Shown in pieces: positions 27,254-51,732 of a DNA stretch of 57,873 nucleotides. The stretch spans positions 1 to 57,873 of the forward strand of contig NZ_FNJQ01000024.1 in the NCBI RefSeq assembly GCF_900104055.1, given 5' to 3'. The stretch comes from Pseudoselenomonas ruminantium. GTDB lineage: Bacteria > Bacillota > Negativicutes > Selenomonadales > Selenomonadaceae. A program made the translations under genes and the position numbers. Each line of letters opens with the position of its first letter. The stretch's first letter is position 1. The notes under the pieces are model-generated. The model saw nothing but the letters and a program-made list of their open reading frames with translations. It was not told the DNA's origin and did no database searches.

Positions 27254-27373
27254 AAAAGAGGTTTTGCACAGAAAATGCTTCTATGCAAAACCTCTGGTTC
27301 TTCCAGTCAGTTTCCTCGCTTGACGATGACCTTATGTTACACTATTACACCAATCATGTCAATAGGTGTAAAC
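27254..27373 (-). promoter_or_regulatory. Promoter-attenuator cassette 1 (upstream of the M20-metQNI operon)
   Basis: Minus strand -35 TTGACA (27357-27362), 17-nt spacer, -10 TAACAT (27334-27339). The -35 lies in the dyad CCTATT-N5-GATTGG. The leader contains ACTGACTGGAAGAACCAG and then a terminator stem AGAGGTTTTGC / GCAAAACCTCT (27258-27296) followed by a T tract. About 75 nt separate start and terminator. Nearly identical cassettes lie at 35207, 38006 and 51609. No known riboswitch class was recognised. Confidence 0.85.
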
Positions 27374-31987: not shown

Positions 31988-33400
31988 TTATTGGATGGGC
32001 AGGCCCATTTCACGCAGCTCGGCCTTTACCTTGTTGTAAATGGCCAGATATTCCGGCTTGGGCTGTACGGTCTTCAAATCGTAAGCCGTGCGGAAGTCCC
32101 CGCCCACGGTATGCAGGGTGCGGTTGTCAATCAGCGGCTGATACTTGGGCAGGATACGGTTGACCAGTTCATTGGCCTGTACACGCGTCAGCCGCGCTTT
32201 GCCCACGGCCTTGCCCACATCGGCGGCAAATCTTGCACCTAAGCCGCCAGCCTGGTCGAGGCCTGCACTCTGATGCCCCGTGCCACCAGCCACCAGGAAG
32301 CCCAATGTCGCACTGCCGATAGCTCCGGCTGCCGTCTCCCAGAAGTATTCCTCACTGTTGATGCCTGCCGTCATCTGCCAGGCGGCACCGACCAGTGCCG
32401 GGAAGTGGGTGTGCTTGCTGAAAGCCGCCCCGCCGTAGTTGGCCACATAGAGGGCGTACTTGCTGGAGTTGCTGAAGTAGAGCGCATCGGTCGGCCAGGT
32501 GCCCAAAAGCGTGGGCTCGTAGAGCATCACATAAGCCAGGAGGTCGGCCACGCCATTTACGGCTGAAGTTGCCGGGCCGCCGGCGGCACCGCCAATATAG
32601 GCCTGCAAGATGCCCCAGATGTTGGCGCCATAGGAATGCCAGAAATAAGCGCGGCTCATCTGGTCATAGTCCGTCTTGAGCTGAGGCATGATGTAGACAT
32701 GGCGCACATCGCCCTTCTTCACGCCCCAGAGGGGATTGGCTGCTGCCATTTCCGCCTGGAGATTCACTGGCGTGGAGCCGCCATCGGGAAGTCCCGGACG
32801 GCCCACCCGCCGTTTTATATCATTGACGACTGCCACATGCTGCTGTTCAGCCATCATTTCAAAGGGAGAACCCGGTTTGATGGGTATCCCGTTGATTTCC
32901 GTCTTCACGCCCTGGAAATGCACATAATCCACCAAAGGTTCCTGTGCATAGGACAGGGCAATCTTCTCATAAAGGTCATCGGAAATCGGTCCTAAGATGC
33001 GGCCCATGGTGCCCACCGGGGTTGGCCCGTTGTCGTAATCCTCAAAGCCCCGGTGCGGAATGGTTATCGCGTCCTGCCCTTCCCCTAAAGTCACGCTGCG
33101 GGGCAGGTTTTCCAAAGCCGCGTCGATTTCCTCTTCGGTAAAGAGAATGCGTCGTTCCGTGGATACATTCAGGATACCCACGTCCAAGAGCAGTTCCTTG
33201 CCGGCCTGCCAGATGGCATCCAGCTCGTCATCGTCCGTAGGAACCACTTTGCCTTCAGCGTACTCAATGCCGTATTTCTTGGTGAGTTCTTTCAGTCTCG
33301 GCCAATATACTTTCGTGTCAAATTCCTTCTGGAAGGTGATGGGGCCAGTCTCACCGCGCCCCCAATACTCGATGAATTTACCTTTTGAACCATGGCTCAT
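31988..33400 (-). CDS. MtmB-family methyltransferase lacking pyrrolysine
   Basis: 470-aa homologue of monomethylamine:corrinoid methyltransferase MtmB. The family pattern is visible: LKELTKKYGIEY, PTDDDELDAIWQAG, ILGPISDDLYE, and a C-terminal TVQPKPEYLAIYNKVKAEL. The segment GRPGLPDGGST aligns with the archaeal active-site segment GRPGMGV-Pyl-GPET, placing glycine 207 (codon at 32780-32782, GGC) where MtmB has pyrrolysine 202. No in-frame TAG exists. ATG 33400 follows CGGAGG. The methyl donor cannot be monomethylamine by the Pyl mechanism; donor unknown. Confidence 0.82.
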   Translation of the reverse strand: MSHGSKGKFIEYWGRGETGPITFQKEFDTKVYWPRLKELTKKYGIEYAEGKVVPTDDDELDAIWQAGKELLLDVGILNVSTERRILFTEEEIDAALENLPRSVTLGEGQDAITIPHRGFEDYDNGPTPVGTMGRILGPISDDLYEKIALSYAQEPLVDYVHFQGVKTEINGIPIKPGSPFEMMAEQQHVAVVNDIKRRVGRPGLPDGGSTPVNLQAEMAAANPLWGVKKGDVRHVYIMPQLKTDYDQMSRAYFWHSYGANIWGILQAYIGGAAGGPATSAVNGVADLLAYVMLYEPTLLGTWPTDALYFSNSSKYALYVANYGGAAFSKHTHFPALVGAAWQMTAGINSEEYFWETAAGAIGSATLGFLVAGGTGHQSAGLDQAGGLGARFAADVGKAVGKARLTRVQANELVNRILPKYQPLIDNRTLHTVGGDFRTAYDLKTVQPKPEYLAIYNKVKAELREMGLPIQ

Positions 33401-33474
33401 AGTCATTTCCTCCGTTCCCCAAAACACTGGTGCTTATGCACTCTTATCTAACATCACGGATCTTGCTTTTAGCT

Positions 33475-35206: not shown

Positions 35207-35328
35207 AAAAAAGAGGTTTTGCGCAGGACTATCCTGCACAAAACCTCTGGTTATCCAGTCAGTTTGCTCGCCTTTTTGGCGTTGGGTTAATGTTACACTA
35301 TTACACCCAGTCTGTCAATAGGCAGAAA
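35207..35328 (-). promoter_or_regulatory. Promoter-attenuator cassette 2 (upstream of the corrinoid operon)
   Basis: -35 TTGACA (35313-35318), 17 nt, -10 TAACAT (35290-35295). Leader includes ACTGACTGGATAACCAG, then terminator stem AGAGGTTTTG / CAAAACCTCT (35212-35248) with a T run. The left arm of the dyad is diverged compared with cassettes 1 and 3. The leader lacks a recognisable cobalamin riboswitch. Confidence 0.85.
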
Positions 35329-38005: not shown

Positions 38006-38122
38006 AGAAAAGAGGTTTTGCCCAGAAAAATTCTCAGCAAAACCTCTGGTCTTCCAGTCAGTTTCTTTTTGACGTTGGGTTAATGTTACACTATTACACC
38101 CATCATGTCAATAGGTGTAAAC
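38006..38122 (-). promoter_or_regulatory. Promoter-attenuator cassette 3 (upstream of the esterase operon)
   Basis: -35 TTGACA (38106-38111), 17 nt, -10 TAACAT (38083-38088). Leader includes AACTGACTGGAAGACCAG and the terminator stem AGAGGTTTTGC / GCAAAACCTCT (38011-38047). It lies directly after the mnmA stop and shares with cassette 1 the upstream GTTTACACC and the GGTGTAATAGTGTAACAT spacer. Confidence 0.85.
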
Positions 38123-39190
38123 TTAATTTGCCAAAAATATTTTCCCGCCACCAATGATACGGCCTTCGTCGTCATAAAACACCGCCGACTGCCCCGGTGC
38201 CGGCGCGCGGACGGGTTCGGCAAATCTTATCTGTATCCTGTCCTCGCCCACCCGCTGAAGGCGGGCCGCCGCCCCCGCATGGTGATAGCGTATCTTTACC
38301 TGAGCGGATACGACTTCTCCCGGTGCAATATCTGTCAGGGACATAAAGCAGAGATTCTCGCACAATACTTCATCTGTATAGAGCCCCTCTTCCCGGCTGA
38401 CCACCACTTCATTGGCGGCGGCTCTTATCTCCTTGACATAGGCCGGATAGCCCAGGGCCAAGCCCAAGCCTTTCCGCTGCCCCACGGTGTAATGGATAAT
38501 CCCCTTGTGGCGGCCTAAGACCTTGCCCGCTTCATCCACGAAATTTCCTGCTGCCGTCAAATCCTTATCGCTGTATTCTTCGATGTAATCGGTGTAACTG
38601 CCCTCGGTAACAAAACAGATTTCCTGGGACTCTTCCTTGTCTGCCACATTCAGCCCCGCCTTGCGGGCAATATCCCGCACTTCCTGTTTCGTCAGCCGCC
38701 CCAGGGGCAGGATGGTACGAGCCAGCTGCTCCTGGGTGAGCTTGTAGAGCATATAGGACTGGTCCTTGCGCCCATCGGCCCCCTGCTTCAAGGTGTAACG
38801 CCCATTGGGCAGCTGCTCGATCACTGCATAATGGCCCGTGGCCACATAATCCGCCTGCATGGAGGCCGCCACTGCCAGCAGCTGATCCCATTTCACATAG
38901 CGGTTGCATTCCACACAGGGGTTGGGCGTGCGCCCTGCCTCATAATCGGCCACAAAGGGCTTGGTCACATAATCGTGAAAACAAGCCACCGTATTCCAAG
39001 GATAGTATGTGATGCCCAGCATGGCCGCCGTCCGGCTGGCCTCGTCAATCTCACAGCACTTGCTGCTGCCCGCCGTCCAGGATTTCAGCGTGATGCCGAT
39101 GACCTCAAAACCGGCCGCCTTCAATAAATATGCCGTTACCGCACTGTCCACACCACCGGACATGCCTACAATTACCTTGCCTCTGCTCAT
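38123..39190 (-). CDS. mnmA: tRNA 2-thiouridine(34) synthase MnmA
   Basis: ATP-pyrophosphatase that places sulfur on U34 of Lys, Glu and Gln tRNAs. The P-loop-like GMSGGVDSAV is near residue 9, the catalytic cysteines are in NPCVECN (near 90) and EICFVTEG (near 191), and TGHYAVI and YTVGQRKGLG are family-typical. 355 aa, normal length. It has its own promoter with the same dyad as the cassettes but no terminator leader, linking tRNA thiolation to the sulfur regulon by promoter type. Confidence 0.95.
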   Translation of the reverse strand: MSRGKVIVGMSGGVDSAVTAYLLKAAGFEVIGITLKSWTAGSSKCCEIDEASRTAAMLGITYYPWNTVACFHDYVTKPFVADYEAGRTPNPCVECNRYVKWDQLLAVAASMQADYVATGHYAVIEQLPNGRYTLKQGADGRKDQSYMLYKLTQEQLARTILPLGRLTKQEVRDIARKAGLNVADKEESQEICFVTEGSYTDYIEEYSDKDLTAAGNFVDEAGKVLGRHKGIIHYTVGQRKGLGLALGYPAYVKEIRAAANEVVVSREEGLYTDEVLCENLCFMSLTDIAPGEVVSAQVKIRYHHAGAAARLQRVGEDRIQIRFAEPVRAPAPGQSAVFYDDEGRIIGGGKIFLAN

Positions 39191-39232: not shown

Positions 39233-39265
39233 ATGTTATATCTTTTAACCTATTATGTCAATAGG
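39233..39265 (-). promoter_or_regulatory. mnmA promoter with cassette-type dyad
   Basis: -35 TTGACA (39256-39261), 17 nt, -10 TAACAT (39233-39238). The -35 sits inside a perfect CCTATT-N5-AATAGG dyad (39249-39265), the same dyad that is partly kept in the four cassettes. No GAGGTTTTGC terminator follows. Confidence 0.8.
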
Positions 39266-51608: not shown

Positions 51609-51732
51609 ACAAAAAAGAGGTTCTGCGCAGGGATTTACCCTTGCACAGAACCTCTGGTTATCCAGTCAGTTCATTCGTCTTGCAACGATGACCTTATGTT
51701 ACACCATTACACCTATCATGTCAATAGGCATA
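51609..51732 (-). promoter_or_regulatory. Promoter-attenuator cassette 4 (upstream of the nif-like sulfur operon)
   Basis: -35 TTGACA (51719-51724), 17 nt, -10 TAACAT (51696-51701), with CCTATT-N5-GATAGG around the -35. The leader contains AACTGACTGGATAACCAG and ends in the stem AGAGGTTCTG / CAGAACCTCT (51616-51655) plus a T run. The stem's T-to-C change is compensated on the other arm (A to G), direct evidence that the hairpin is selected. Confidence 0.88.

Follow-up and report, generated by a model that had tools for sequence, protein, structure and literature searches.

An inverted repeat over the −35 box is a probable operator of an Rrf2-family regulator at sulfur-scavenging promoters of Pseudoselenomonas ruminantium

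Rrf2-family regulators that work from an operator laid over a promoter are a known kind of system, and the arrangement described here is a variation within that kind. CymR is the Rrf2 repressor of cysteine metabolism in B. subtilis and S. aureus; according to PMC9338935, the B. subtilis protein binds no iron-sulfur cluster. IscR, a second described member, carries three cysteines. An Rrf2 gene of C. perfringens, cpe1786, is grouped with iscS, trmU and a scaffold gene, and is reported to be up-regulated under cysteine limitation (PMC2940859). The Rrf2 proteins SifR/HypR are associated with short inverted half-sites upstream of the regulated genes (PMC9218516), of the form TGTAA-N9-TTACA. A 2026 preprint (PMC13404960) connects an Rrf2 protein in Lachnospiraceae with oxygen detoxification genes. 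No description of the operator reported below was found among the open-access papers listed, and among the matches listed for the motif strings the papers were unrelated by title.

Our candidate regulator, C1, is an Rrf2 protein of 131 residues (MISTRGRYALR...) encoded at C44:119821-120213 of the Pseudoselenomonas ruminantium genome. It resembles CymR in its Rrf2 sequence, and the gene set of the C1 dyad includes mccB-like, metQ, cysK and metY genes; unlike CymR, it has three cysteines, and it falls outside the CymR group in our tree. Three cysteines are shared with IscR, and clostridial C1 proteins often have nifS as divergent neighbour (35/71 loci among the best 80 of 229 relatives, with sufC at one), a linkage that the P. 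ruminantium genome itself lacks. In contrast to the clostridial Rrf2-iscS-iscU-trmU operon, C1 is divergent from its neighbour and not co-operonic with it. The half-sites are short, inverted and upstream of genes as in SifR/HypR, but they read CCYA...TRGG, with four-base arms 9 or 17 nt apart.

The window, by which we mean the whole stretch of 57,873 nt analysed (contig NZ_FNJQ01000024.1), contains five promoters of interest (Table 1). The preliminary description had reported a perfect dyad overlapping the −35 box of an mnmA promoter, and this was confirmed. The dyad, CCTATT-N5-AATAGG (CCTATTATGTCAATAGG, or CCTATTGACATAATAGG when read on the mnmA strand from 39265 to 39249), encloses the −35 box with TTGACA inside it. 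It is the sole perfect copy within the window, and the GTGTAAT part, or GGTGTAAT extension, is absent from this promoter. The gene behind it does belong to the MnmA family, as first described, but it is a second MnmA paralog, 44% identical to the one on contig C26; cysteines 92 and 192 are identical across four aligned MnmA rows.

Table 1. Positions of the putative operator, promoters, leaders and associated genes in the window
Feature	Position	Strand	Details
Perfect dyad CCTATT-N5-AATAGG, putative operator, mnmA-paralog promoter	39249..39265	.	Sequence; CCTA and TAGG in 8/8 orthologous promoters
mnmA-paralog promoter	39233..39261	-	−35 TTGACA 39261-39256, 17 nt, −10 TAACAT 39238-39233
MnmA paralog (tRNA 2-thiouridylase family)	38123..39190	-	Genome's other MnmA at C26:6754-7806
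Cassette 1	27334..27366	-	Dyad 27350-27366, promoter 27362-27334 with GGTGTAAT element; then M20 amidohydrolase and MetQ
Leader of cassette 1, CTGAC hairpin and terminator-like stem	27257..27333	-	
Cassette 2	35290..35322	-	Dyad 35306-35322, promoter 35318-35290; then corrinoid methyltransferase genes (MtaA-like, MtgC-like, MtmB-like, RACo)
Leader of cassette 2, CTGAC hairpin and terminator-like stem	35212..35289	-	
Cassette 3	38083..38115	-	Dyad 38099-38115, promoter 38111-38083; then esterase and ATP-grasp gene
Leader of cassette 3, CTGAC hairpin and terminator-like stem	38011..38082	-	Stem by eye
Cassette 4	51696..51728	-	Dyad 51712-51728, promoter 51724-51696; then SAM-dependent methyltransferase, MccB-like and PALP (MccA-like) genes
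Leader of cassette 4, CTGAC hairpin and terminator-like stem	51616..51695	-	Stem by eye

The other four promoters head cassettes. All four have CCTATT, TTGACA, a 17-nt spacer and TAACAT in common, start with CCTATTGACATGATTGG, CCTATTGACAGACTGGG, CCTATTGACATGATGGG and CCTATTGACATGATAGG at identical spacing to TAACAT, and carry dyads that extend into GGTGTAAT. The dyad had been described as partly kept in these cassettes, and each indeed keeps CCTATT, with one mismatch in the dyad at 51712-51728 and two in each of those at 27350, 35306 and 38099; the right arm at 35306, however, reads ACTGGG in register and not GACTGG. The targets had also been described as sulfur genes; not all are plainly so, as with the esterase/ATP-grasp pair at 38083 and the corrinoid methyltransferases at 35290. 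Within the run of corrinoid methyltransferase genes behind its cassette promoter lies an MtmB-family (monomethylamine methyltransferase) gene of 479 open codons, at 31988-33427 on the minus strand.

Within the window, the loose form of the dyad (≤3 mismatches) was not found above chance: 23 matches against 17.8 expected, with 23 or more in 13 of 100 shuffles. The case therefore rests wholly on comparison. In the 3.2-Mb genome, the dyad core CCYATTGACANNNTRGG has six exact matches, four in the window and two on contig C24, and all six are promoters of the gene set; no exact match lay at a random position, the outcome that would have spoken against an operator. The promoter block TTGACATNNTNGGTGTAATANTGTAACAT (≤3 mismatches) gave seven matches in the same genome, four in the window and three on C24, and its reversed pattern gave none. 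On C24 the copies stand upstream of metY, of a DUF2292 (yezD-like) gene and of a series of genes for sulfate transport and sulfate reduction, these last identified by eye.

Allowing one mismatch in CCYATTGACANNNTRGG raised the count in this genome to 11, of which eight are set promoters, against four for the reversed control. The three matches outside the set lie at C29:58447, a plain promoter ahead of an ammonium-transporter-like gene (by eye), at C67:11298, within an open frame, and at C44:84992. This last one (G000:C44:84992-85008, L015) has a −10 at 17-nt spacing and stands ahead of a gene for a CO dehydrogenase catalytic subunit (339.6 bits, a fragment under the model cut-off of 478); it may be a further target. 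Taking every match at three mismatches as a site was rejected as too noisy, with 125 matches against 64 for the reversed control.

Across the order, the 29-mer promoter was detected in 21 of 189 genomes and the reversed pattern in none; one match, in G015, was judged spurious by eye (three mismatches, CC arm missing), which leaves 20. All loci gathered at ≤4 mismatches yielded 74 distinct promoter copies, one of them the spurious G015 site. Conservation in the left arm, which lies outside the search pattern, is 79, 97, 90 and 100% for C, C, T and A. For the right arm it is 97, 67 (A), 100 and 100% for T, A or G, G and G, with the TGTAA that follows at 95 to 100%, figures that are favoured because most of these columns lie within the search pattern.

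The dyad might be a mere embellished −35 region, copied with its promoter as the cassettes were duplicated and serving no operator function; TTGACA does lie within the dyad, and the cassette promoters are near-identical over 29 nt. The mnmA-paralog promoters argue against this. The window-type mnmA was found in 8 of 25 genomes searched. All eight carry the motif and belong to the 16 genus members covered; G004, although motif-positive, has no window-type mnmA. CCTATTGACATNNTAGG is kept in 8/8 of these promoters and the remaining spacer varies. Retention of both arms while the spacer drifts is the clearest sign that both matter outside the cassette context, and on sequence grounds it supports the earlier reading of the dyad as an operator. 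Furthermore, arms without TTGACA occur far above shuffles upstream of clostridial Rrf2 genes. An embellished −35 region is the least probable of the explanations that we considered. In Clostridia the dyad of the nifS, metY and cysK promoters is not accompanied by the GTGTAAT part.

Rrf2 genes were present in 41/41 genomes searched, and one kind, C1, tracks the motif. C1 matches the Rrf2 superfamily model PF02082 with 110 bits (cut-off 30), and its solved relatives include 4cic, CymR 2y75 (E 1.2e-15), 3t8r (7.5e-15) and IscR 4hf0. In a 78-row tree made by a quick method, 51 C rows (C1, C2 and one C3 row) form a branch with an SH-aLRT support of 97, apart from the CymR references and from groups A and D, the support being limited by few columns, 33 open forks and long-branch warnings. 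Nor do the C rows appear to group with the IscR references, of which E. coli IscR is on a branch 3.7 changes long and of unsure placement. A three-cysteine pattern is found in 93/93 C1, 37/39 C2 and 13/13 A proteins and in 0/13 D proteins. At the recognition helix, at least 91 of 93 C1 proteins have SKKYLE and at least 31 of 39 C2 proteins have SKKY(L/M)E, compared with SE(N/H)YLE in 13/13 A and SKIYLE in 13/13 D proteins.

Of the 189 genomes of the order, 21 encode a protein that shares 68% identity or more with C1. Seventeen genomes have both this protein and the 29-mer, four have C1 only, three have the motif only (four with the spurious G015) and the rest have neither. The best proteins of the motif-only genomes are 62% (G186), 60% (G201) and 47% (G023) identical to C1. 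The C1-only genomes are G048, G051, G161 and G162. In three of them the bare dyad stands ahead of a metN-like gene (G051), of nifS and an amidohydrolase gene (G161) and of metY (G048, where it adjoins the C2-type gene and not C1); G162 has a single match, with two mismatches. The MetN-like and NifS proteins scored best with the models of those names, just under the cut-offs. Within the genus, C1 was found in 12/12 genomes with the motif and 0/10 of the others, a split that includes some incomplete genomes and may reflect few evolutionary events only. In 7/12 motif-positive genus members (G003, G004, G005, G006, G008, G016 and G020), about 2.5 kb separate the C1 gene from the motif at metY; in P. 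ruminantium the C1 gene adjoins none of the sites.

In other genera, the dyad separates a C-type Rrf2 gene from its divergent neighbour. Upstream of C2 genes with 300 nt available (38 genes, a count that excludes three Rrf2 open frames for which the script found no start), CCYA-N9-TRGG was present in 29/38 (shuffled mean 0.49, maximum 2 in 200) and the strict form in 25/38 (shuffled 0); nine of the 38 upstreams are without the dyad. The genes behind these dyads include cysK, metY, nifS and an M20 amidohydrolase gene; in several g29 genomes cysK and the Rrf2 gene lie on opposite sides of the dyad.

Relatives of C1 in named genomes, taken as the best 80 of 229, comprise nine from Selenomonas and 71 others, which make up the clostridial set. 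Those outside Selenomonas among these best 80 of 229 are 70 to 80% identical to C1 and come mainly from Lachnospiraceae, other Clostridia, Mogibacterium and Oscillospiraceae; rumen metagenome-assembled genomes supply many of these relatives. Among the 70 clostridial upstreams with 300 nt (best 80 of 229), 52 have the arms (shuffled mean 1.22, maximum 5), 41 have the strict dyad (shuffled 0) and 18 have no dyad. Neighbours were read away from the Rrf2 gene over at most 1.5 kb and sorted by a short sequence signature; one metY-, nifS-, cysK-, patB- and sufC-type protein each, some from other genera, was checked against profiles. The far-side gene at the 71 loci (best 80 of 229; with dyad in brackets) was nifS at 35 (33), metY at 11 (11), cysK at 3 (3), patB/malY at 2 (2) and sufC at 1 (1), with 19 (2) unassigned. 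Thus nifS, metY, cysK, patB or sufC lies beyond the dyad in 50/52 dyad-bearing clostridial loci (best 80 of 229), which indicates that the dyad belongs with the promoter of the sulfur gene that faces the Rrf2 gene.

This layout bears on the identity of the ligand. The general LysR box has the form T-N11-A, and the CTAT-N7-ATAG of the dyad fits it, so that the dyad could be bound by a LysR-type regulator of sulfur genes (CysL, CmbR or MtaR-like); its symmetry also fits. Sulfur genes of other Firmicutes are under the control of LysR-type proteins (PMC2940859). However, the gene adjoining the dyad elsewhere is an Rrf2 gene (29/38 C2 upstreams and 52/70 clostridial upstreams among the best 80 of 229), and we consider a LysR-type ligand very improbable.

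The ligand might instead be another Rrf2 protein, of group A or of the cysteine-free group D. Both are Rrf2 proteins, several genomes of the class have a group A gene, and not a group C gene, close to mnmA, and matches of group A strength occur in motif-positive and motif-negative genomes alike. Yet the dyad arms are upstream of only 1/13 A and 0/13 D genes; for comparison, C3 has them at 1/7 and C1 of the order, in the N5-type form, at 1/20. Moreover, D is present in 10/10 motif-negative genus members, whose metY has another palindrome (by eye), and in P. ruminantium no D was found among four of the six Rrf2 matches examined, the other two being contig-end fragments. Group A or D as the ligand is therefore very improbable. 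The preliminary description had suggested a CymR/IscR-like Rrf2 ligand: co-occurrence (both in 17/189 genomes) and the Rrf2-dyad-sulfur gene layouts elsewhere point to an Rrf2 protein, C1, but one that appears to group with neither CymR nor E. coli IscR.

The spacing of half-sites provided a further view of C1. At the 71 clostridial loci (best 80 of 229), convergent CCYA-to-TRGG pairs with start-to-start spacings of 12, 13, 20 and 21 nt occur at 27, 52, 21 and 44 (shuffled means 1.0 to 1.3). Half-sites that point the same way, 8 nt apart by the same measure, occur at 32/71 (shuffled 2.0; best 80 of 229). A wide form, CCTATT-N13-AATAGG (≤1 mismatch), is found at the own promoters of 18/22 C1 genes in the order, compared with 10/39 for C2, 1/13 for A and none for D. 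Its location at the promoter of C1 itself would fit autoregulation. With N13 arms there and N5 arms at the targets, one protein would need to read both spacings.

The motif-negative branch of the genus appears to be wired differently. The D-type gene present in all ten of its members faces cysK in most. The dyad was absent at the metY upstreams of the seven readable motif-negative genomes (G001, G002, G007, G009, G012, G014 and G015; L176-L181 and L188). Just after the −10 region of metY, five motif-negative genomes have the palindrome AAACATAT...ATATGTTT, and two have an imperfect version (by eye); it recurs in most cysK-D intergenic regions. From this placement, D may be the protein that reads it. 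Motif and leader are both present at the nine metY genes found in motif-positive genomes, so that sister groups appear to connect metY to different regulators. The idea that motif-negative genomes have an orthologous CymR was not supported, since D did not group with CymR in the tree; the best solved match of D is 4cic, with IscR and CymR about equal.

Downstream of most of these promoters lies a leader with a CTGAC hairpin. It accompanies 62/74 promoter copies, with a terminator-like stem in those viewed, and is missing from 12, among them eight yezD-like (DUF2292, by eye) and one mnmA-paralog copy; dyad and leader are thus separable modules, as had been proposed. In 24 distinct leader cores, 94/96 cells pair in stem 1 (shuffled mean 88.2, maximum 92) and 93/96 in stem 2 (shuffled mean 79.2, maximum 85), figures that lean toward pairing because the parser took CTGAC as its anchor, gave credit for AG and picked the best-pairing loop. 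Covariation is seen as CTGG/CCAG, CTAG/CTAG and CCAA/TTGG, and as AAC/GTT, GAC/GTC and AGC/GCT, and the internal loop places AG opposite TGA in 23/24 cores. The hairpin may be antiterminator-like, the 3′ side of stem 1 being common with the terminator stem as it would be in an antiterminator. At gathering scores, Rfam returned for the window a 16S fragment at 1-74 only, and so the leader fits no listed family at that threshold. The fragment is the 5′ end of a 16S rRNA gene, on the minus strand at the contig edge. DUF2292 (yezD-like) genes, at L067:11297-11614 (+) and in its orthologs, have the same promoter and are leaderless; one may speculate that the small DUF2292 protein could act on the leader.

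Taken together, these comparisons make it likely that the dyad serves an Rrf2-family regulator, here C1, as its operator, and that C1 would block and release sulfur-scavenging promoters. A C1 dimer would contact the inverted half-sites CCYA...TRGG on either side of the −35 box, which they enclose. When sulfur is plentiful, bound C1 would block RNA polymerase; when it is short, genes that scavenge methionine and cysteine would have their promoters released. Repression rather than activation is suggested by the position of the dyad over the −35 box. The signal would be sulfur or iron-sulfur status; with its three conserved cysteines, C1 may sense it through an iron-sulfur cluster or as a thiol sensor. 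In most cassettes the transcribed hairpin-terminator leader would add a second layer, acting after initiation.

We lean, with some reserve, towards a broader view. An undescribed Rrf2 clade with the SKKYLE helix and three cysteines may be a master regulator of sulfur and iron-sulfur metabolism across rumen Clostridia and Selenomonas, using CCYA half-sites phased at 8 nt, so that the arms are separated by 9 or 17 nt. In some Selenomonas this clade may occupy, at metY, the place that a cysteine-free, cysK-linked Rrf2 protein and its own palindrome have in sister genomes, and there it may form a two-layer switch with the leader hairpin-terminator. For the control of sulfur genes in anaerobes of the rumen and gut, these results supply a candidate regulator, a candidate operator and a list of genes, with the dyad as a short handle for predicting more targets. 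Since metY apparently has two different switches within Selenomonas, the replacement of one regulator by another may be open to study between close relatives.
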